Below are positions 19,454-28,260 of a stretch of 58,665 bases of DNA, one piece after another. Below the pieces are notes generated by a model, which had not been told where the DNA came from, searched no databases, and saw nothing but the letters and a program-made list of their open reading frames with translations. The position numbers and the translations under genes are program-made. This DNA is from Candidatus Merdibacter merdigallinarum (GTDB lineage Bacteria; Bacillota_I; Bacilli_A; Erysipelotrichales; Erysipelotrichaceae). Every line of letters begins with the position of its first letter. Position 1 is the stretch's first letter. The DNA is taken from assembly GCA_019118705.1 (NCBI GenBank), contig DWYK01000183.1, positions 1-58,665 of the forward strand. Reading direction: 5' to 3'.

Positions 19454-19491
19454 ATACATACAGAACATGTACAAAGAGAGGAGGTGTGCCC

Positions 19492-20163
19492 ATGCGGATA
19501 TTGATCGCAGAGGATGAACGAGATCTCAACGATCTGATCACACAGCGGCTGATCCAGGAACATTACAGCGTCGATTCCTGCTATGACGGAGAAGAGGCGC
19601 TGGACTTTCTGCGGATGGCCGATTATGATGCGCTCATCCTGGACATCATGATGCCTCGTCTCGACGGACTGAGCGTGCTGCGCACCCTGCGGGAAAACAA
19701 GAACGATGTCGCCGTGCTGCTGCTGACGGCAAAAGACAGCATCGAAGACCGGGTGAAGGGGCTGGATGCCGGTGCGGACGATTATCTCATCAAGCCGTTT
19801 GCCTTTGAAGAGCTCTCTGCCCGGCTGCGGGTGCTGTTACGCACTCCGCAACAGAAACAGAATGAACTGCGTGTTGCCGATCTGTGTCTCTCTCTGGACA
19901 CCCGGCAGGTCACGCGCGGGGGACGAGCGATCACCCTTTCCTCAAAAGAATATACGCTGCTGTGCTACATGATGCGAAATGCCGGCATCGTTTTGACCAG
20001 AGAGCGGCTGGAACAGCATGTCTGGAATTATGACTTCACCGGCGCCTCCAATGTCATCGACGTCTACATCCGCCATCTGCGCAAAAAGATCGATGACGGC
20101 TTTGAGACAAAGCTGATCCACACCATACGCGGACACGGCTATGTCCTGAGGGAGCCCTCATGA
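19492..20163 (+). CDS. OmpR/PhoB-family response regulator
   Basis: A 223-residue DNA-binding response regulator. The receiver domain (1-115) shows the acidic pair in AEDERD, phospho-acceptor Asp51 in LILDIMMPRLDG, Thr/Ala in LLTAKD and Lys101 in DYLIKPF. The winged-helix output domain (about 125-220) ends with SNVIDVYIRHLRKKID and TIRGHGYVL. ATG 19492 follows GAGGAGG at good spacing; the GTG at 19486 is less likely. Its stop overlaps the kinase start (ATGA). Targets unknown; the PepSY lipoprotein in the same operon suggests envelope control. Confidence 0.93.
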   Translation: MRILIAEDERDLNDLITQRLIQEHYSVDSCYDGEEALDFLRMADYDALILDIMMPRLDGLSVLRTLRENKNDVAVLLLTAKDSIEDRVKGLDAGADDYLIKPFAFEELSARLRVLLRTPQQKQNELRVADLCLSLDTRQVTRGGRAITLSSKEYTLLCYMMRNAGIVLTRERLEQHVWNYDFTGASNVIDVYIRHLRKKIDDGFETKLIHTIRGHGYVLREPS

Positions 20164-21560
20164 AACGGCTGTCCTTAAAAGCACGGCTGACCCTGCTGTA
20201 TACCGGGCTGATGATCCTGCTGTTCGTGATCATCAGCGCCCTGCTGTTTTCACTGGGCTCTCAGGCGATCCTCACCGATACACGTTCCCTCCTGGAGGAG
20301 CGGGTCTCTTCTTCCTTCGACCTGGTGGAATACCGCCACGATCGGCTGGAGTTCGATTCCGATCTGCTGCAGGTGGAGGACGGCGTCTATCTCTCGGTCT
20401 ATGACACAGAGGGAGAACTGCTGTATGGGCGGCTCCCCTATCATTTCACCTATGATCTGCCGTTTGAACAGGATGCGCTGCGCCGCATCGACACAGACGA
20501 TTTCTCGTATTATGTGCTGGACATGTCCTTTCAGGCCGACGGTCGCATTGACCTGCGCATGCGCGGCGTCATCTCCATCACGGATGCGGAGCGCAATTTC
20601 CGCTTCATCCTGCGGCTGGCCTTCATCTTGTTTCCGCTCTTCATCCTTCTCAGCGCCATCGTCGGATATCTGATGAGCCGCCGGGCACTCGCTCCCGTCA
20701 GCAAGATCACCGCGACGGTGCGGGACATTCAGAAAGAAAAGGACCTCAGCCGCCGGGTCAAGCTGGGAAAAGGACGCGATGAGATCTATACGCTGGCGGC
20801 CACCTTTGATGAGATGCTCGACAAGATCGAAGCCGCCGTCAAACGGGAACGTCAGTTTACCAGCGATGTCTCTCATGAGCTGCGCACGCCGCTCAGCGTG
20901 CTGACGATGCAATGCGAAACGATGCTGGCACGCGACGACCTGGATGCACAGACACAGAAACAGGTCGAACTGCTGCAGCAGAAGATCCATTCGCTGAACG
21001 TGATGATCGCCCAGCTTCTGCAGCTGTCCCGCGCAGATCAGGGAAGAGAACAGCTGCACATGGAAACCTTCTCCTTCAGCGAACTGTGTGAAAGCATCGC
21101 GGAAGAATACAGCGAACTGGCGGCCGAAGCGCACATCCATCTGACCGCGACGATCGAGGAAGATCTCATCGTTCACGCCGATCAGACACTGATGATCCGC
21201 CTGCTCACCAACCTGCTGCAGAACGCTGTCACCTATGGTCGGGAACACGGACACATCTGGCTGCGCATCTGCCGGCAGGAACAGCTCTGCATCGAAGTCA
21301 GGGACGATGGCATCGGCATCCGTGAGGAACAGCTGCCGCACATCTGGGAACGCTTCTATCAGGCCGACCCTTCCCGCAACAAGGGAAGCGGCCTGGGCTT
21401 GTCTATGGTGCGCTGGATTGTCCATGCACACAAGGGCGAGATCCGTGTCCAAAGCGAGTGGCAAAAGGGAACGAGCTTCTTCTGTCAGCTGCCGATCCTT
21501 ACCTGCGTGAAGCCGGAATCGCCCGATCGTAACCAAAGCAACAAGGAGGAATCGCCATGA
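20160..21560 (+). CDS. membrane sensor histidine kinase
   Basis: A 466-residue HK. TM1 is about residues 10-36, followed by an extracellular sensor region of about 110 residues and TM2 about 148-172. Then come HAMP (RRALAPVSKITATVRDIQ), the H-box FTSDVSHELRTPLSVL (His about 240), N-box LLTNLLQNAVTYG, G1 VRDDGIGI, F-box ERFYQAD and G2 GSGLGLSMV. It phosphorylates the preceding response regulator. Both ends overlap neighbours by ATGA, so the three genes form one coupled operon. The sensed signal is unknown. Confidence 0.93.
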   Translation: MKRLSLKARLTLLYTGLMILLFVIISALLFSLGSQAILTDTRSLLEERVSSSFDLVEYRHDRLEFDSDLLQVEDGVYLSVYDTEGELLYGRLPYHFTYDLPFEQDALRRIDTDDFSYYVLDMSFQADGRIDLRMRGVISITDAERNFRFILRLAFILFPLFILLSAIVGYLMSRRALAPVSKITATVRDIQKEKDLSRRVKLGKGRDEIYTLAATFDEMLDKIEAAVKRERQFTSDVSHELRTPLSVLTMQCETMLARDDLDAQTQKQVELLQQKIHSLNVMIAQLLQLSRADQGREQLHMETFSFSELCESIAEEYSELAAEAHIHLTATIEEDLIVHADQTLMIRLLTNLLQNAVTYGREHGHIWLRICRQEQLCIEVRDDGIGIREEQLPHIWERFYQADPSRNKGSGLGLSMVRWIVHAHKGEIRVQSEWQKGTSFFCQLPILTCVKPESPDRNQSNKEESP

Positions 21561-22330
21561 CATCTTTTTCCATGAAACATGCGCTCACCGCGCTCGCCGC
21601 CGCTGCGCTGCTTTGGGGCTGCAGCGCCAATTCCATCAGTGAACAGGATGCCAGGGAGATCGCCATGCGCTCCGCCGGCGTAGAGGAAAACAACGTCAGC
21701 GCCATGAGCGTGGAAACCGGCACCCTGGATGGAACCGAAGCCTACATCATTCAGTTTGAAACGGCCGACCGCAGTTACCAGACGATCCTCTCCCGCACGG
21801 ACGGCGAAGTGCTGCGCTCCTCTTATCAAAGCAAGGGTCCTGCTTCGGATGCCGGGGAGGGCACACAGGGAAACGATCCCGGGGAGGGCAGCGATCCTTC
21901 TGTCATCTCCCTGGAAGAGGCCAAGTCGATCGCCCTGAAAGATGCCGGTGTCGGCGCTGCTGATGCCACCTTCACCAAGGCAAAGAATGACGGCAGCGCT
22001 TCTTATCCGCTCTATGAGATCGAGTTTCACTCTGCTTCCACCTACTATGAGTATGAGATCGGCGCAGACGGCACCATCTACCAGCTCGAGCAGGAATCCA
22101 GCGGCCACCAGAGCGGATCCGGCAATGAGATCTCGCTCGCCAGGGCGAAACAGCTGGCCCTGGCCAAGGTCGAAGGCGCCACAGAAAGCGACATCTTCAT
22201 CGAAGAGGAGTGGGACGACGGCATGCACCTGTATGAAGGGGAGATCTATCATGACAATGTCAAATACGAATTTGAGATCGATGCCGGCAGCGGCAGCTTC
22301 CTGAAATGGAGCATGGATTACCGCGACTGA
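21557..22330 (+). CDS. PepSY-domain lipoprotein, three repeats
   Basis: A 257-residue exported protein with a signal peptide and probable lipidated cysteine at about residue 22 (LLWGC; Trp at -2 is unusual). Three PepSY-like repeats follow, each beginning with a helix of the type ISxxxAxxIAxxxAGV (about residues 28-85, 115-175, 188-255). A Gly/Asp/Ser-rich linker at about 92-112 separates the first two. PepSY modules are associated with inhibition or regulation of extracytoplasmic proteins. The start overlaps the kinase stop, so it may be a partner of the sensor. It ends at a strong terminator shared with the convergent CotH gene. Confidence 0.85.
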   Translation: MTSFSMKHALTALAAAALLWGCSANSISEQDAREIAMRSAGVEENNVSAMSVETGTLDGTEAYIIQFETADRSYQTILSRTDGEVLRSSYQSKGPASDAGEGTQGNDPGEGSDPSVISLEEAKSIALKDAGVGAADATFTKAKNDGSASYPLYEIEFHSASTYYEYEIGADGTIYQLEQESSGHQSGSGNEISLARAKQLALAKVEGATESDIFIEEEWDDGMHLYEGEIYHDNVKYEFEIDAGSGSFLKWSMDYRD

Positions 22331-22336
22331 CCGAAC

Positions 22337-22388
22337 AAAAACGGATGTGGATACGCACCTGCTTCGTGCAGGGATCCACATCCGTTTT
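22337..22388. terminator. bidirectional terminator between PepSY and CotH genes
   Basis: Long inverted repeat arms (AAAACGGATGTGGAT and ATCCACATCCGTTTT) with an inner GCACCTGC/TGCAGG stem and TTCG loop. T-runs lie on both strands, and it overlaps the CotH stop codon. Confidence 0.85.
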
Positions 22389-23826
22389 ATTTCGCATCCG
22401 TGATGCGCGCCAGCGCTGCCTGCTGCCGCTCCTTTGCATTACGAAGATCGTCAAAATCACCCAGCGCACGCAGATCGATCATAGCGGCATCCACACCGAC
22501 ATCCGGCTGTGCCTGCTGCTGGGCCAGGGTCGAAGGATAGCGGCCTTCCAGCTGTCCCCGGATGCTCTCCTTTCGCTTCTGACACACCTGCCGCAGCGTA
22601 TCGACTGCCAGCTGATGATCCGCATAGGAACAAAATGCCGTCGGATCCTTTTTTACATACGGGGCGATCAGCGCTTCCTTTTCCTGCAACAGCGCTTCAA
22701 AGCGGCCGCTGTCAAAGTAATCGGCAAGGAAGGAAGAAAAGAGCGAGTGATACTGTGCAAAGAGCGCATCCTCTTTCATGAGCTCATGATACAGCGGGCG
22801 CTGTCGCATGATGCTGCCCTCTGCCGGCGTATCGATCGGATAGTTGATCAGCACGTTTGGATCTCGGATCGGGTCGCGCATGCCCAGCGCATAGGTGCCA
22901 AAGGCCAGATTATAATCCCATGGCAACATCCACAGCCGGCCTTCTTCTTCATACAGGATGTAATTGTGCCCGGTATGGCCCAGATAGCTGTCCCAGTTCA
23001 TCACGAACACCTGTACGACGAAATAACGCAGCACTTCATCGGTGTGGACCGCCGTCGTCACCTCACCCTGTGACAGCTGCCGCAGGGACTCGATCAGCCG
23101 GCGCTGATCGCTGTGGACCATCGGTGTCTTTGCGTGATCGAAGATGTTGGGATAGCTCGATGGCTGTTCATCGATGTAACGCAGGGCCACATCTGCATTC
23201 TCATCGTTCAACGAACGATAGTCCGGCTGATACAGCACCCCGTGATCCCAGCCGAAATTCCGGCCGGCAAACGCTTCCTCACACTCTTCAACAGCCAGAA
23301 ACAGCCCCCAGTCCTCACCGTTGACACGCACCCACGCATAGCTGCACAGCGGTGTCGGAACCCCCATGAAGCGCATCATGTCAAATGCCAGCACCGTCTT
23401 GAGATAGCTGTTGTCCTGAAACGAAGCGTCCAGCGACAGCTTGTCGAGCCCATGATAATTCCCCTGCGGCAGATAGTGGTCGAATTCCACCTTCAGACTG
23501 TAACGTGTCAGCTCGTATTCACTTGTCAGACGCAGCGAGTTGTTGCCTTTGGCGCGGATACCGACCTGTCGGAAGACCTCATCGTCGATCGTCATCGTAC
23601 ATGGAACATAGCGCTCTTCCTGTGCCTCTTCGATCAGCGCGCCCCAGTCATCGATCGTAATGTCGATCGTATGCACCCGCGTATCATCAAACAGCCGCGT
23701 CTCATATGCCATGGCGACCCCGTTTTCCTCCTGTACGGACGCCCACACAGACAGCAGCGCCGTGATCATTAGCGCCACGACCAGACCTGCCAGACAGATC
23801 TGGTCCACCAGCCGATGACGGATCAT
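22387..23826 (-). CDS. CotH-family protein kinase
   Basis: A 479-residue protein with an N-terminal membrane anchor (about residues 10-32) and a CotH kinase domain outside the membrane. Recognisable parts are VGIRAKGNNSLR, the K/E-type phrase DWGLFLAVEECEEAF, VMNWDSYLGHTGHNYILY and LPWDYNLAFG, which carry the Asn/Asp residues expected for nucleotide and metal binding. CotH of Bacillus phosphorylates spore-coat proteins on serine; many homologues are non-sporulation surface proteins. Here it is the last gene of lipoprotein-VTC-DUF4956-CotH, with a two-base gap from DUF4956. Its substrate is unknown; the repeat-tailed lipoprotein of the same operon is a candidate. Confidence 0.85.
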   Translation of the reverse strand: MIRHRLVDQICLAGLVVALMITALLSVWASVQEENGVAMAYETRLFDDTRVHTIDITIDDWGALIEEAQEERYVPCTMTIDDEVFRQVGIRAKGNNSLRLTSEYELTRYSLKVEFDHYLPQGNYHGLDKLSLDASFQDNSYLKTVLAFDMMRFMGVPTPLCSYAWVRVNGEDWGLFLAVEECEEAFAGRNFGWDHGVLYQPDYRSLNDENADVALRYIDEQPSSYPNIFDHAKTPMVHSDQRRLIESLRQLSQGEVTTAVHTDEVLRYFVVQVFVMNWDSYLGHTGHNYILYEEEGRLWMLPWDYNLAFGTYALGMRDPIRDPNVLINYPIDTPAEGSIMRQRPLYHELMKEDALFAQYHSLFSSFLADYFDSGRFEALLQEKEALIAPYVKKDPTAFCSYADHQLAVDTLRQVCQKRKESIRGQLEGRYPSTLAQQQAQPDVGVDAAMIDLRALGDFDDLRNAKERQQAALARITDAK

Positions 23827-23828
23827 GC

Positions 23829-24500
23829 CTACCCCATGTAATCGCCGTTATAGGAAACCAGGGCGCTCCGACTGACGCCCGGGATCTTTGCCAGCGCATG
23901 GATGAAGCTGCTGTCCGCTTTCTTCAGACGCACCTCATAGTTCAGCTCGATCCCTTCCGGATCGACCTGCTTGCTTTTCAAAGACAACCGGCGCACGCTG
24001 TCTTCCACAAGCGTACGCACCTGATCCGCCGCTTCCTCATCGACACAGCGGATGACGAGGATATACGGCTGTTCCCCATCCTTCTGACGGGCAAACACCA
24101 GCAGCACCGCTCCGATCAGCGCACTGCCCAGCACGGCCAGCGGTACCAGGCCGGCAGCCAGCACGATCCCCACAGCGATCGACCAGAACAAAAAGACGAT
24201 GTCCATCGGTTCCTTGATGGCGGTGCGGAAACGAACGATCGACAAGGCACCGACCATGCCCAGCGAAAGGACGACGTTGCTGACGACGGCCATGATCAGC
24301 AGCGTCGTGATCATCGACAGGGCGATCAGCGTCACCCCGAAGGAAGCTGCGTACATGATGCCGCAGTAACTGTGCTTATACACAGAAAAGATGAACAGCC
24401 CCAGCAGAAAAGAAAGCGACAGGGCGATCACCATGTCGGCCAGGGAGATGCTGGCGATGTTCTCCAGAAAACCGGAACGAAAGATATCATCAAAGGTCAT
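23829..24500 (-). CDS. DUF4956 membrane protein
   Basis: A 223-residue protein with four hydrophobic segments (about residues 22-40, 48-75, 105-122, 124-140) and a soluble C-terminal domain of about 80 residues. The conserved core SLGMVGALSIVRFRTAIKEP followed by a membrane helix is the DUF4956 signature. No function is established. Genes of this family often sit beside VTC-domain and CotH genes, as here. GAGGAGAGG precedes ATG 24500, 17 bases after the VTC gene stop. Confidence 0.85.
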   Translation of the reverse strand: MTFDDIFRSGFLENIASISLADMVIALSLSFLLGLFIFSVYKHSYCGIMYAASFGVTLIALSMITTLLIMAVVSNVVLSLGMVGALSIVRFRTAIKEPMDIVFLFWSIAVGIVLAAGLVPLAVLGSALIGAVLLVFARQKDGEQPYILVIRCVDEEAADQVRTLVEDSVRRLSLKSKQVDPEGIELNYEVRLKKADSSFIHALAKIPGVSRSALVSYNGDYMG

Positions 24501-24517
24501 AGACAGTTTCCTCTCCT

Positions 24518-25225
24518 CTAATCAAACCGCCGGCACAGCGCATATTTGGAACAGGCCATCGCCTGCCGGCCCGGCACCTGTACCGCCATCGAAACGATTG
24601 TCGGCAGATATGCATCATATTTGACTTCCAGTACACAGATGTCCGCCAGCACGGAAAGCGAAGGCGGCGAAGGGTGCAGAAAGTGGCGAACAGCGACGGT
24701 TTGGATCTTCCGGTCCAGAGTGATCCGCACATTTCCATGCGGATACAAAAACGCCTCCCGCTCATAGCTGACCACACAGACCGGACGCAGCAGCTCTCCC
24801 TGCAGCTTGCTGTAAAGCTCCAGCAACAACGGATCATCGCTCTCTCGCAGACACGCAGGATTCCCCTTCAAAAGCTCCTGCAACATCGCTTCTGACAGAC
24901 GAGTGCTGCGCTTGGCACACAGCCCACCGCGTTTCATCTTCTTTTCCAGGCGGACGAACGACGCATCCGTCCCATAATAACGCAGGCGAAACTTCTCCCG
25001 ACGATCGACCCCGTCAATCTTTTCACGCAGCGCACGGTCATACGGCGTATCGAAATACAGGGAGTGAACGCTGTAAGAACCGTCATGCCCGGCATGCGGA
25101 TCCAGGGCAAACAACCGTTTCAGACGAGCGGAAAGCACCAGTCCCTCCTGCAAAGAGAGCTGGTGCTTTTGTTCGTGGCGAAACTTCAGCGGGACATGTG
25201 CGCTAATCGTAATCGGAGCCGCCAT
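24518..25225 (-). CDS. VTC-domain (polyphosphate polymerase-like) protein
   Basis: A triphosphate tunnel metalloenzyme fold of the VTC type. Landmarks are KFRHEQKH, SLYFDTPYDRALREKIDGVDRREKFRLRYYG, FVRLEKKMKRGGLC, the strand TLDRKIQT and LEVKYDAYLP, which supply the basic and acidic tunnel residues. Yeast Vtc4 makes polyphosphate from ATP; bacterial homologues are mostly unstudied. The start is uncertain. Homologues begin at the KFRHE segment, where the codon is CTG at 25189 with no obvious ribosome binding site. The nearest in-frame ATG is 25225, inside the end of the lipoprotein gene. Either way translation is likely coupled to the lipoprotein stop at 25203. No signal peptide, so the domain is probably cytoplasmic. 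Confidence 0.8.
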   Translation of the reverse strand: MAAPITISAHVPLKFRHEQKHQLSLQEGLVLSARLKRLFALDPHAGHDGSYSVHSLYFDTPYDRALREKIDGVDRREKFRLRYYGTDASFVRLEKKMKRGGLCAKRSTRLSEAMLQELLKGNPACLRESDDPLLLELYSKLQGELLRPVCVVSYEREAFLYPHGNVRITLDRKIQTVAVRHFLHPSPPSLSVLADICVLEVKYDAYLPTIVSMAVQVPGRQAMACSKYALCRRFD

Positions 25226-26252
25226 CGTCGTAGTTGCTGTCGCCGTCATCGTAATTGGAGTCCTGGCTCGAATCACCGTATGCGCTGTCGTTATAATCGG
25301 TCACACCATCGTTGTTCGGGCCATAATCGGTATCGTTGTAGTCCGTGACACCGTCATTGTTCGGGCCATAGTCCGTATCGTCATAATCGGTCACGCCATC
25401 GTTGTTGGGACCGTAGTCCGTATCGTTGTAGTCCGTGACACCATCGTTGTTCGGCCCATAGTCCGTATCATCATAGTTGCTCGCCTGCTGGCTGCTTCCG
25501 CTGTTCGTCTGACCGGAAGAAGCCGGCTTTTTTGATCCGGAGGAAACCGCCTTGTGCTGCGCCTGGATCACCTTGCCGCTGACCGCATGCACATCGTATT
25601 CATATTCCACACCATTTGCGGTAAACTCCAGCTCAAACACCGGGGTCCCGTCATCATGATCAAATTCTTTGTCCTCGAACACCGCATCAGCCGCAGAGAC
25701 GTTTGCCTGTGCCAGCGCGATCTCCTGTGCCTTTGCCAGCGTGATATACGGAGACGGACTGCCATCCTTCGCATAAGCCGGGTCGTAGTCATCATCATCG
25801 ATCATCAGGATCTGGCTGCCCAGCGAAAGATCGCTGACTGCCTGCTGTGTGCTTGCGCTCATGTTTGCCAGAAAATCATCCTCCGGCAGGATCGATCCCG
25901 GTTCCAGCTGCAGCACGATGTTCTTCTTATGTCCGTCGACCTCTTCTGTGAAGTAGCCGGCCTCATTGATCTCGATGATCAGATCCTGCAGCACCACATC
26001 ACACTCCTTGCCGACATAGTCCGGATAAGATGCAACGATGGCCTCTCCGTCCTCGTTCACACCGGTGAGCGCCGTGACCTTTCCCTCGCTGTTATACGTG
26101 ATCTCGATCTCCGGATTGACACTCAGGATCAGTGTCCCGCTCTCGCTCAGCGCAGCGCCGTCGGATGGATCTGTTCCGCATCCGCTCAATAAGAGCACGC
26201 TCATACACGCCATGGATGCGACTGCCGATAATAGTTTTTTCTTGTGTTTCAT
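25203..26252 (-). CDS. RsgI-like/PepSY lipoprotein with acidic Tyr-Asp repeat tail
   Basis: A 349-residue lipoprotein with lipobox LSGC (Cys about 25). Residues 38-110 resemble the extracellular domain of RsgI anti-sigma factors (LILSVNPEIEITYNSEGKV, LTGVNEDGEAIV). Residues about 170-235 form a PepSY-like module (ITLAKAQEIALAQANVSAADAVF). A Ser-rich linker leads to four 15-residue repeats of the form (N/D)DTDYGPNNDGVTDY and a final Asp/Ser/Tyr-rich end. The tail is strongly acidic. AAAGGAG precedes ATG 26252, and a promoter identical in pattern to the sigI promoter lies at 26290-26319. It heads the operon with VTC, DUF4956 and CotH, and may be their modification target. Confidence 0.85.
   Translation of the reverse strand: MKHKKKLLSAVASMACMSVLLLSGCGTDPSDGAALSESGTLILSVNPEIEITYNSEGKVTALTGVNEDGEAIVASYPDYVGKECDVVLQDLIIEINEAGYFTEEVDGHKKNIVLQLEPGSILPEDDFLANMSASTQQAVSDLSLGSQILMIDDDDYDPAYAKDGSPSPYITLAKAQEIALAQANVSAADAVFEDKEFDHDDGTPVFELEFTANGVEYEYDVHAVSGKVIQAQHKAVSSGSKKPASSGQTNSGSSQQASNYDDTDYGPNNDGVTDYNDTDYGPNNDGVTDYDDTDYGPNNDGVTDYNDTDYGPNNDGVTDYNDSAYGDSSQDSNYDDGDSNYDDGGSDYD
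25293..25472 (-). repeat. four in-frame 45-bp tandem repeats
   Basis: Four 45-bp units encode the 15-residue acidic repeat of the lipoprotein tail. The DNA copies are nearly identical, with alternating Asn/Asp at the first residue, which suggests recent expansion or ongoing recombination. Confidence 0.9.
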
Positions 26253-26289
26253 TGGAAATTCTCCTTTCTTTTCCCTGTCACTGACAGAT

Positions 26290-26319
26290 TACGCAACGGG
26301 CAGATGTAAACCGGGGTCA
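26290..26319 (-). promoter_or_regulatory. SigI-type promoter of the lipoprotein-VTC-DUF4956-CotH operon
   Basis: On the minus strand TGACCCCGGTTT is followed after 13 bases by GCGTA. The same two elements at the same spacing lie upstream of sigI at 28029-28058. A C-rich -35 and a CGWA-like -10 are features reported for SigI promoters. Predicted transcription would begin about 30 bases before ATG 26252. Confidence 0.75.
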
Positions 26320-26341
26320 CTTTTTTATTTTTTCAATTTTT

Positions 26342-27283
26342 TTAATCGTCATATCCCGATGCGCCCTCATAGGCGGAATCATTCTCCGTCGACGAATCGT
26401 ATCCACTGTCGCCTTCCGCATCGTCCTCTTCATAGGAGGAATCGGACTCGATCGGCTCTTCCTTCGGCGGGGTCACCGGTGTCGAAGGGGCAGCCGGCGT
26501 GCGATCACCATACGATCCGTCTCCATAATCGGACGTACCGGCGGAAGATCCGCTCTGTGAGCTGCCGCCTTTGGAAGGGGTGGGTGGCGTGTTTTCCGGT
26601 CTGGTCTCCTGCTGTACATCATCGGAAGCATTTACCGTTTCTTCCCCTGCCGGTGCCTGTGTGGAAGAGTCGGATCCGGATGTCGTCGGGATGCTGTCGC
26701 CATAGGCGATGATGACGACCGTCATTCCCTCCTGTCCTTTCAGGTGTTCTTCCACCTCGCTTCGCAGCTGGGCGCCATATTCCTGAAAGAGCGCTTCCTG
26801 CGGCGCATCGATCGAGAAGGAGATCTGTCCGCCGGCAGAGAGATAGCCCATCTCGATCGCCCGGTCGATCAGTTCATCACTGACCGTCAGCTTATCCTTG
26901 CCATAGCCGTCATAACCTTCCAGCAGCGCTTTTCCATCAGCGTTCGTCCCTTCCAGATGGATGACATTTCCTCTGCGGTTGAGATCCATGCGCACTTCCG
27001 GGTTGATGCGGAGATAGATCGACGAATACAGCGTCTGGTTGTTCACATAGTAATCATAGCCAAAGAATCCGACCACCAGCAGCAGACAGGCCGCCATCAG
27101 GCTCACGACGGCCGGTTTCCAGCGGAAATGTGGTGTGGAAGCCCGCTCTTCCCGCATCAGGACCGGATCCACGATGGTCTCTCCGATCGTATAGGAGAAG
27201 TCGGCCGCTTTGACGAACCGGCCTTCCTCATCCAGCAGGACCACATATCCGGGGTGACGTTCCATTACGATATATCGCATCAT
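26342..27283 (-). CDS. rsgI: RsgI-family anti-sigma-I factor
   Basis: A 313-residue single-pass protein. The cytoplasmic N-terminal RsgI domain (about residues 3-50: YVVLLDEEGRFVKAADFSYTIGETI) binds SigI in known systems. TM is about 58-77. The extracellular RsgI region is about 85-195 (SIYLRINPEVRMDLNRRGNVI, ALIDRAIEMGYL-like). A long disordered Ser/Gly/Asp/Tyr/Pro tail runs from about 205 to 313 and ends SGYDD. Cellulolytic clostridia carry carbohydrate-binding modules in this position; none is seen here. The start overlaps the sigI stop; ATG 27280 is better spaced from GGAGG than ATG 27283. It would hold SigI inactive until an envelope signal arrives. Confidence 0.85.
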   Translation of the reverse strand: MMRYIVMERHPGYVVLLDEEGRFVKAADFSYTIGETIVDPVLMREERASTPHFRWKPAVVSLMAACLLLVVGFFGYDYYVNNQTLYSSIYLRINPEVRMDLNRRGNVIHLEGTNADGKALLEGYDGYGKDKLTVSDELIDRAIEMGYLSAGGQISFSIDAPQEALFQEYGAQLRSEVEEHLKGQEGMTVVIIAYGDSIPTTSGSDSSTQAPAGEETVNASDDVQQETRPENTPPTPSKGGSSQSGSSAGTSDYGDGSYGDRTPAAPSTPVTPPKEEPIESDSSYEEDDAEGDSGYDSSTENDSAYEGASGYDD

Positions 27284-28005
27284 GCCTCCACCCCTCTCTT
27301 TCTGCTCATCAGATGCGTACGGATCATCTCATAGCCATTGGTATGGATCAAAAGCAGTGCGACCAGATATTTTCGATGACGTTCCAGCGTCTTGCGCTCC
27401 ACCTGACTTCCCTCACTCAGCTTTGCGATCGGCAGCCGTCGGCTCTCCACCAGTTGCATCAGCAGGGCAGGCTGCGTCTTTGCGTAAGCCAGTGCCCGAT
27501 GGCACGCATCCAGCGTTCGCTGCTGGCGGGGACAGTTGTCCGCCACATCCGCAAAACAGAGATCATACTGCCGCAGCTGTTTTGACAGCTCAGCGATCTC
27601 CCGCTGAAAGGCTTCCTCCCGCTGTTGTTCTTCATAATGATCACGGGGATCGTGGATCGTATCCAGCAGGGTCCCTTCGGTTTCCTCACCGATGGGGGCA
27701 TCCAGCGACAGCGCATGACGATGACGCTGCTCTTTGCGGGCATGGTCGATGAGACGGCTCTTGATCAGCATGCCGGCATAATGCAGGAAGCTCCCACGCA
27801 GCGAACTGTACCCGCTGATCGCTTCGTGAAAGGCGATCATGGCGATGCTCAGCTCATCGTCCCGCCCCTCCTGCGGGGGACGTTTCAGAAATTTTTCGGT
27901 CTGTGCCTTGATGAACGGCAGATAGGCGCTGATCAGTTCGTCCGCTGCCTCCGTGTTCGTCTTGGCAGCTTCGACCAGTCGGACGATATCCGTCTTTCTG
28001 TCCAT
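27280..28005 (-). CDS. sigI: RNA polymerase sigma-I factor
   Basis: A 241-residue sigma-70-family protein of the SigI group. Region 2 is about residues 20-95 (ELISAYLPFIKAQTEKF, DDELSIAMIAFHEAISGYSSLRGSFLHYAGMLIKSRLIDHARKE). The SigI-type C-terminal DNA-binding part ends with KTLERHRKYLVALLLIHTNGY, a typical group signature. ATG 28005 is chosen because GGAGG lies nine bases upstream and because the predicted -10 element at 28029-28033 overlaps the ATG at 28029. It is co-transcribed with rsgI and probably autoregulated. Signal and full regulon are unknown. Confidence 0.88.
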   Translation of the reverse strand: MDRKTDIVRLVEAAKTNTEAADELISAYLPFIKAQTEKFLKRPPQEGRDDELSIAMIAFHEAISGYSSLRGSFLHYAGMLIKSRLIDHARKEQRHRHALSLDAPIGEETEGTLLDTIHDPRDHYEEQQREEAFQREIAELSKQLRQYDLCFADVADNCPRQQRTLDACHRALAYAKTQPALLMQLVESRRLPIAKLSEGSQVERKTLERHRKYLVALLLIHTNGYEMIRTHLMSRKRGVEA

Positions 28006-28028
28006 ACAATGGTCCTCCATCCATAGCA

Positions 28029-28058
28029 TACGCAGGCGTTTTCTTCAAACCGGGGTCA
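28029..28058 (-). promoter_or_regulatory. putative autoregulatory SigI promoter
   Basis: On the minus strand TGACCCCGGTTT, a 13-base spacer and GCGTA lie immediately upstream of sigI. The pattern matches the one at 26290-26319 exactly in both elements and spacing. The spacer sequences differ, so this is not a simple duplication. Confidence 0.75.
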
Positions 28059-28204
28059 AGGCCACAAAAACGCCGCTTTTTCTTGTTCTGTTACCTTTCA
28101 TTATATCGATACTTCTGACAGCGGACATCAGCGCCTCGTTAAGCAAGCGTTAAACAATGTAAAATCGATATCAAATACATCCCCTCCTCGATACCAGAAG
28201 CGCA

Positions 28205-28246
28205 AAAAAAAAGCAGTTGCTCGGCGGCATCCGCCCAGAACTGCTC
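28205..28246 (-). terminator. intrinsic terminator of the UvrA-like gene
   Basis: On the minus strand AGCAGTT/AACTGCT arms with an inner GGGCGG/CCGCCG stem are followed by eight or nine T. It ends transcription from the gene whose stop is at 28261 and insulates sigI. Confidence 0.85.
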
Positions 28247-28260
28247 AAAAACAGCAGGAT

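Follow-up and report, generated by a model that had tools for sequence, protein, structure and literature searches.

The SigI Cassette and Its Two Putative Promoters

The window, i.e., the whole stretch of 58,665 nucleotides that was analysed, carries on its minus strand a cassette extending from 22387 to 28058. It begins with sigI, which encodes a sigma factor of a SigI subtype (27280-28005; matches to NCBIfam, PDB, and Pfam sigma region 2), followed by rsgI for a transmembrane anti-sigma factor (26342-27283; RsgI_M with an NP motif, weak RsgI_N). Then come a lipoprotein gene, hereafter LIP (25203-26252; lipobox, RsgI_M with NP, PepSY, and C-terminal repeats DTDYGPNNDGVTDY), a gene for a polyphosphate-polymerase-like VTC-domain protein (24518-25276; Pfam VTC, E = 4.9e-36), one for a DUF4956 membrane protein (23829-24500; Pfam DUF4956, E = 2e-11), and, at the end of the operon, one for a CotH-family kinase (22387-23826; Pfam CotH, E = 2e-55).

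Two putative SigI-type promoters, both on the minus strand, precede these genes. P1 (28024-28058) lies before sigI-rsgI, at a site conserved in orthologues, and consists of a -35 box TGACCCCGGTTT (28058-28047), a 13-base spacer and a -10 box GCGTATGCTA (28033-28024). P2 (26285-26319) lies before the lipoprotein operon and consists of TGACCCCGGTTT (26319-26308), a 13-base spacer and GCGTAATCTG (26294-26285). It sits 22 bases past the rsgI stop, with A-rich DNA before it, and no terminator was detected when one was sought in the rsgI-P2 interval. Taking the C of CGTA as position -14 (numbering from PMC10575876), transcription from P1 is inferred to start near 28018. The open reading frame of sigI is listed from an ATG at 28029 that overlaps the P1 -10 box; because of its GGAGG and of the orthologues, the ATG at 28005 is the likely start instead, which leaves a leader of about 13 nt. 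A possible sigma-A -10 element (TATAAT, 28094-28106, minus strand) was found upstream of P1, the exact TATAAT being at most 110 bases upstream and the -35 weak, and it could provide basal sigI expression. In relatives, sigma-A-like -10 elements were commoner than in shuffled sequences before sigI, not before LIP.

The Twin Motif in the Window and the Genome

The original prediction was that a single motif occurs twice on the minus strand, just before sigI and just before the lipoprotein gene, with unrelated 13-base spacers. Both parts held: TGACCCCGGTTT-N13-GCGTA is present letter for letter at 28029-28058 and 26290-26319, the 12-base -35 boxes of P1 and P2 are identical, and the spacers do differ (GAAGAAAACGCCT and ACATCTGCCCGTT). 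The two 30-mers were the sole matches in the window with up to three mismatches allowed (expectation 0.05), and none of 100 shuffles of the window gave the two-motif outcome. The genome-wide scan proposed along with the prediction showed the motif to be essentially confined to the sigI and lipoprotein genes: with up to two mismatches, the whole 2.24 Mb draft genome yielded the twin sites only, and at the three-mismatch level five further matches, for three with the backward control. This draft is 86% complete, so that additional targets could have been missed.

The extent of the motif had to be refined. The -10 box is longer than the predicted GCGTA (CGTATGCTA and CGTAATCTG in the window, CGTAWNCTR in relatives), the leading TG is not conserved, and the conserved core across relatives is RCCCCGNTTT-N14-CGTAWNCTR. 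A strict regular expression (TGACCCC plus GCG[TA]A) recovered only one relative besides the window; it was too stringent because neither the TG nor the G before CGTA is conserved, and a looser scan and a matrix were adopted afterward. With the sigI-trained matrix, P2 and P1 scored 31.5 and 30.3 bits and the next, non-twin site of the window 3.3.

Conservation at Orthologous Loci

A protein-only scan of public genomes yielded 80 sigI loci (50-64% identical), mostly from Lachnospiraceae and Oscillospiraceae-type gut bacteria. The absence of the motif from orthologous sigI and lipoprotein loci would have refuted the prediction, and this was not what we observed. The strict pattern lay directly before sigI in 74 of the 80 orthologues, with the identical 13-base spacing in 70, and CCC, TTT, CGTA, and then CT were invariant or nearly so. 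The matrix, trained solely on sigI-upstream sites, was then run over all 80 loci (1.82 Mb, threshold of 11 bits) and returned 140 sites, 75 before sigI and 65 before LIP, with none in these loci away from either gene; a first-order Markov null gives one site at threshold per 2 Mb. The sigI sites being the training set, the independent test is provided by the LIP sites, which were recovered in 64 of the 67 loci having a LIP gene. A few loci (L062, L093, and L113) had no clear P2. Twin sites were also present in most of 24 other Erysipelotrichaceae genomes, picked by protein similarity, and the pair at sigI and LIP was found in about 90 related loci. These loci are related by descent and the counts are not independent trials.

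The motif moves with the genes. The usual order of the cassette is sigI-rsgI-P2-LIP-VTC-DUF4956-CotH. At two loci (L104 and L111), LIP and CotH lie ahead of sigI-rsgI and the sole motif is in front of LIP, and at a locus of the same family (L010) sigI and LIP are divergent with one motif each. In the genome G743, sigI-rsgI and LIP occupy separate contigs, one of the two positions being well away from the contig ends, and each has the motif. In that genome (L266 and L267), they are each located beside very large surface proteins, of 1376 and 1840 aa. Tandem pairs of the motif precede LIP at four loci (L110, L148, L189, and L194), and in the genome G704 (L265, 7408-7734, G704:C2) a single LIP gene is preceded by four SigI-type promoters in tandem, spaced by about 105 bases. 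Across 61 genomes, the likeness between twin boxes was 17.4 of 22, vs. 17.2 for shuffled pairs; the within-genome coherence of the twins is thus weak.

A Regulon Apparently Limited to One Locus

In the 20 genomes reached via the loci, the pattern CCCCGNTTT-N13-15-CGTA-N1-3-CTR gave 33 matches, among which 31 were at the sigI locus. The regulon therefore looks like a single locus with two operons and no other apparent SigI target, which is likely, although inferred from the sequences of genomes many of which are drafts. The 291 Clostridia genomes that we searched, most of them without this SigI, contained 16 matches distributed in 10 genomes (11 at cassettes, one at the unlinked lipoprotein gene of G743, and four strays). 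Clustered matches were observed in carriers only, and in every multi-match genome such a SigI is encoded on the same contig.

A Divergent SigI With Its Own Promoter Code

The sigI product aligned with SigI6 and SigI1 of the PDB over residues 15-239 (SigI6 8i24, E = 7e-20) and met the criterion for full-length SigI homology, with sigma region 2 and the SigI C-terminal domain and no sigma 4. Ten NCBIfam SigI models matched it (best E = 3e-49), every one of them under its curated cut-off (167.5 bits vs. a cut-off of 306; TIGR02895 157.8 vs. 185), and nearly all clade members likewise scored under these cut-offs. These scores show that the SigI of the window belongs to a divergent subgroup. The minor-groove KHR of SigI6 (170-172) is not kept, RQQ being present in the window, and a Gln occupies the SigI6 His171 position in 83 of 85 aligned relatives; we are therefore dealing with a SigI subtype and not with a canonical SigI.

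Tested sigma-I3 promoters follow CCCYYAAA-N13/14-CGWA and those of Bacillales ACCCCC--AA-N15-CGAA (PMC4711584), and the A-tract is essential in C. thermocellum sigma-I promoters (PMC6056542). ECF promoters have a T-tract at the same position, proposed to avoid crosstalk with SigI, and an AAC upstream of the tract in their -35 elements (PMC6056542). The twins meet the SigI promoter criterion of a CCC run, two bases, a tract, 13-14 bases, and CGWA; they do not meet that of a coding-strand A-tract, both having TTT. The prediction that they fit known SigI promoters thus held for the arrangement CCC-N2-tract-N14-CGWA (PMC4711584; PMC6056542), with a tract of T, not A.

Among the promoters of the clade and related ones associated with Gln, TTT was found in 84 and AAA in eight. 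The simple rule that Gln171 goes with a T-tract and His171 with an A-tract was only partly true, given these eight promoters with Gln and AAA and one with His and TTT. One genome (L149/L188-L191) has AAA before sigI and TTT before LIP. In G218 (L151 and L192), both twins have CCCCGAAAT, with an A-tract, and SigI has a His at the tract-reading position, possibly a joint reversal, which would fit the tract rule but is one event. Judged by counts, Gln goes strongly with T and His or Lys with A, yet there are exceptions, and shared ancestry confounds the association. We consider that the twins represent a SigI promoter subtype not described before.

RsgI, Lipoprotein Repeats, and CotH

The rsgI product matched Pfam RsgI_M (E = 1.7e-17) and, under the cut-off, RsgI_N (E = 0.005). 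It met the criterion for RsgI (RsgI_N, membrane helix, RsgI_M, and location next to sigI), the hydrophobic stretch and the adjacency being read from the sequence, and its tail is rich in Tyr, Asp, and Ser. LIP repeats the sensor domain RsgI_M of RsgI without the anti-sigma part (Pfam), and the PDB RsgI outer domain 8t9n aligned with it (E = 5.5e-4) with NP on NP. This motif, which we take to be the autocleavage site of the RsgI outer domain, is kept in 77 of 80 RsgI and in 65 of 68 LIP. The RsgI outer domain cleaves itself (PMC12203970).

Both RsgI and LIP terminate in acidic Tyr-rich repeats. We counted 178 copies of the repeat unit DTDYGPNNDGVTDY in 35 loci, and in the LIP of the window tandem 45-base units (25288-25475) encode YNDTDYGPNNDGVTD. 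The 14-residue repeat unit is also the same, residue for residue, in 35 loci belonging to different genera. When the 291 Clostridia genomes were searched with a degenerate DNA pattern for the repeat, five contained it, always at the cassette. Considering the 50 loci with sufficient flank, LIP had at least three Tyr/Asp repeats in 42 of the 44 loci that have CotH, vs. zero of the six that lack it (Fisher p = 1.8e-6, uncorrected for ancestry), and Tyr/Asp repeats in the RsgI tail were confined to loci also having CotH. The CotH gene product aligned with PDB CotH 5jd9 (E = 6.7e-14), and its putative kinase Asp/Asn columns are invariant in 41 relatives, meeting the homology and active-site criterion for CotH. 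In B. subtilis, CotH phosphorylates the C-terminal repeats of CotB and CotG (PMC7821199). Because of this activity and of the association between repeats and CotH, it is possible that the Tyr/Asp repeats are CotH substrates, their phosphorylation being inferred by analogy with CotB and CotG, and that RsgI reads the output of CotH.

Origin of the Cassette

The cassette is missing as a unit from the congener G002. At the empty site (22331-28260 of the window), the flanking PepSY lipoprotein and UvrA-like genes end 66 bases apart (601 and 667), so that the cassette and both promoters are present or absent together. The grouping of SigI with Oscillospirales-type sequences suggested a transfer; the closest node is poorly supported and the acquisition of the cassette by this route is no more than a possibility. 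A misbinned contig could be ruled out: with 68-70% matches to the same genus for both glmS and the UvrA-like gene next to the cassette, the contig is native. The genes at 19486-22330, a two-component system and a PepSY lipoprotein, are convergent with the cassette; they were rejected as part of it, being present in the congener that lacks it.

Discussion

The identity of the twin motifs, their position, spacing, and conservation, their restriction genome-wide, their movement with the genes and the sensor domain shared by RsgI and LIP are facts established at the sequence level. It is very likely that the motifs serve as promoters for the SigI whose gene is adjacent; the binding of SigI and the start of transcription at these sites are inferred, without transcript-end or binding data. 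In our model, RsgI would keep SigI at the membrane, and its NP-containing outer domain would be expected to cleave itself by analogy with other RsgI proteins, signalling by autocleavage being itself inferred here. With the anti-sigma part lost, SigI would be released, and P1 and P2 would fire together. P1 would drive sigI-rsgI in a positive autoregulation and P2 the lipoprotein-VTC-DUF4956-CotH operon, and SigI would serve this locus alone. The predicted tie of the VTC/DUF4956/CotH operon to SigI control is supported, control being inferred in the absence of transcription data. Against it stand the T-tract, which departs from the essential A-tract of C. thermocellum (PMC6056542), and the sigma-A-like -10 upstream of P1; read-through from P1 could also partly reach P2.

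Could the motif be bound at both operons by another regulator, activator or repressor, rather than being a sigma promoter? Conservation alone cannot distinguish a promoter from an operator. However, the motif is made of two boxes at a near-fixed spacing of 13 bases with a freely varying spacer, is not palindromic, invariably lies on the coding strand not far from a start codon, shares its register with tested SigI promoters, and tracks sigI across genomes, and the cassette has no other conserved regulator gene. We therefore consider this explanation very unlikely. We give even less credit to the reading of the promoters by a different sigma factor, e.g., of the ECF type. It can invoke the T-tracts reported at the same position in ECF promoters (PMC6056542) and the other sigma factors of the genome, but ECF -35 elements have AAC before the tract (PMC6056542) and not CCCC, and the multi-match genomes among the 291 Clostridia all carry such a SigI on the same contig.

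Another alternative is that P1 is a true SigI promoter, whereas P2 arose by recent duplication or is a relic, and that read-through from sigI-rsgI accounts for most of the expression of the lipoprotein operon. The short distance between rsgI and P2 (22 bases), without a detected terminator, and the identity of the 12-base -35 boxes in the window would favour it. Yet the spacers differ, P2 is retained where LIP and sigI are divergent or unlinked, and it has been multiplied in tandem. Moreover, twin boxes in the 61 genomes were barely more similar than shuffled pairs, and they are thus old and separately maintained. This scenario also seems to us very improbable.

Our preferred reading remains that of two promoters recognised by the local SigI, a sigma factor that apparently controls nothing beyond the locus encoding it. 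It links the VTC, DUF4956, and CotH genes, which are poorly understood, with one particular signalling system, and it yields a promoter code, both defined and testable, for a clade of SigI factors widespread in gut Bacillota. The T-tract contradicts the use of A- vs. T-tracts as a separator of SigI and ECF promoters (PMC6056542). A bolder reading would start from a subclass of SigI that has a promoter code of its own (T-tract, extended -10, and Gln for the tract-reading His) and runs a one-locus circuit. RsgI, bearing the Tyr/Asp repeats of the lipoprotein whose expression it governs, would mimic the substrate of CotH and in this way sense what the kinase (or the VTC machinery) produces. This has not been shown and we lean against it; the repeats shared by RsgI and LIP nevertheless make the substrate choice of CotH and the sensing by SigI jointly testable.

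Compared with the sigma-I promoters of C. thermocellum and Bacillales, the twins have the same C-run, two-base step, homopolymer tract, spacing of about 14 bases and CGWA, and the same placement before sigI-rsgI and before targets. They differ by the TTT (A-tract on the opposite strand) of nearly all clade members, by a -10 extended to CGTAWNCTR and by a regulon confined to one cassette. The RsgI/SigI units of C. thermocellum similarly pair a sigma and an anti-sigma factor, with RsgI_M and NP and a C-terminal outer region facing the environment. Here, by contrast, RsgI has no carbohydrate-binding module, its tail being made of Tyr/Asp repeats, and a target gene encodes a second RsgI_M protein without the anti-sigma part.

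As in the CotB/CotG/CotH system of the B. subtilis spore coat (PMC7821199), a gene for a CotH-family kinase is near that of a surface protein ending in tandem repeats, but the repeats are acidic (Tyr/Thr/Asp instead of Ser/Lys/Arg), their phosphorylation is inferred and the cassette is under putative SigI control. C. perfringens NELoc-2 (PMC2879425; PMC11677781) also groups VTC, DUF4956-type, and CotH genes with a sigma and an anti-sigma gene, although the literature searched neither identifies its sigma factor as SigI nor describes a promoter motif. From this literature, without sequence comparison, the NELoc-2 set of sigma, anti-sigma, VTC, and CotH genes may possibly be a related SigI cassette. 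Finally, the accessory genes of Gram-positive Pel loci (PMC7112168), which add polysaccharide genes absent here, bring together the same VTC, DUF4956-type, and CotH genes as the cassette.
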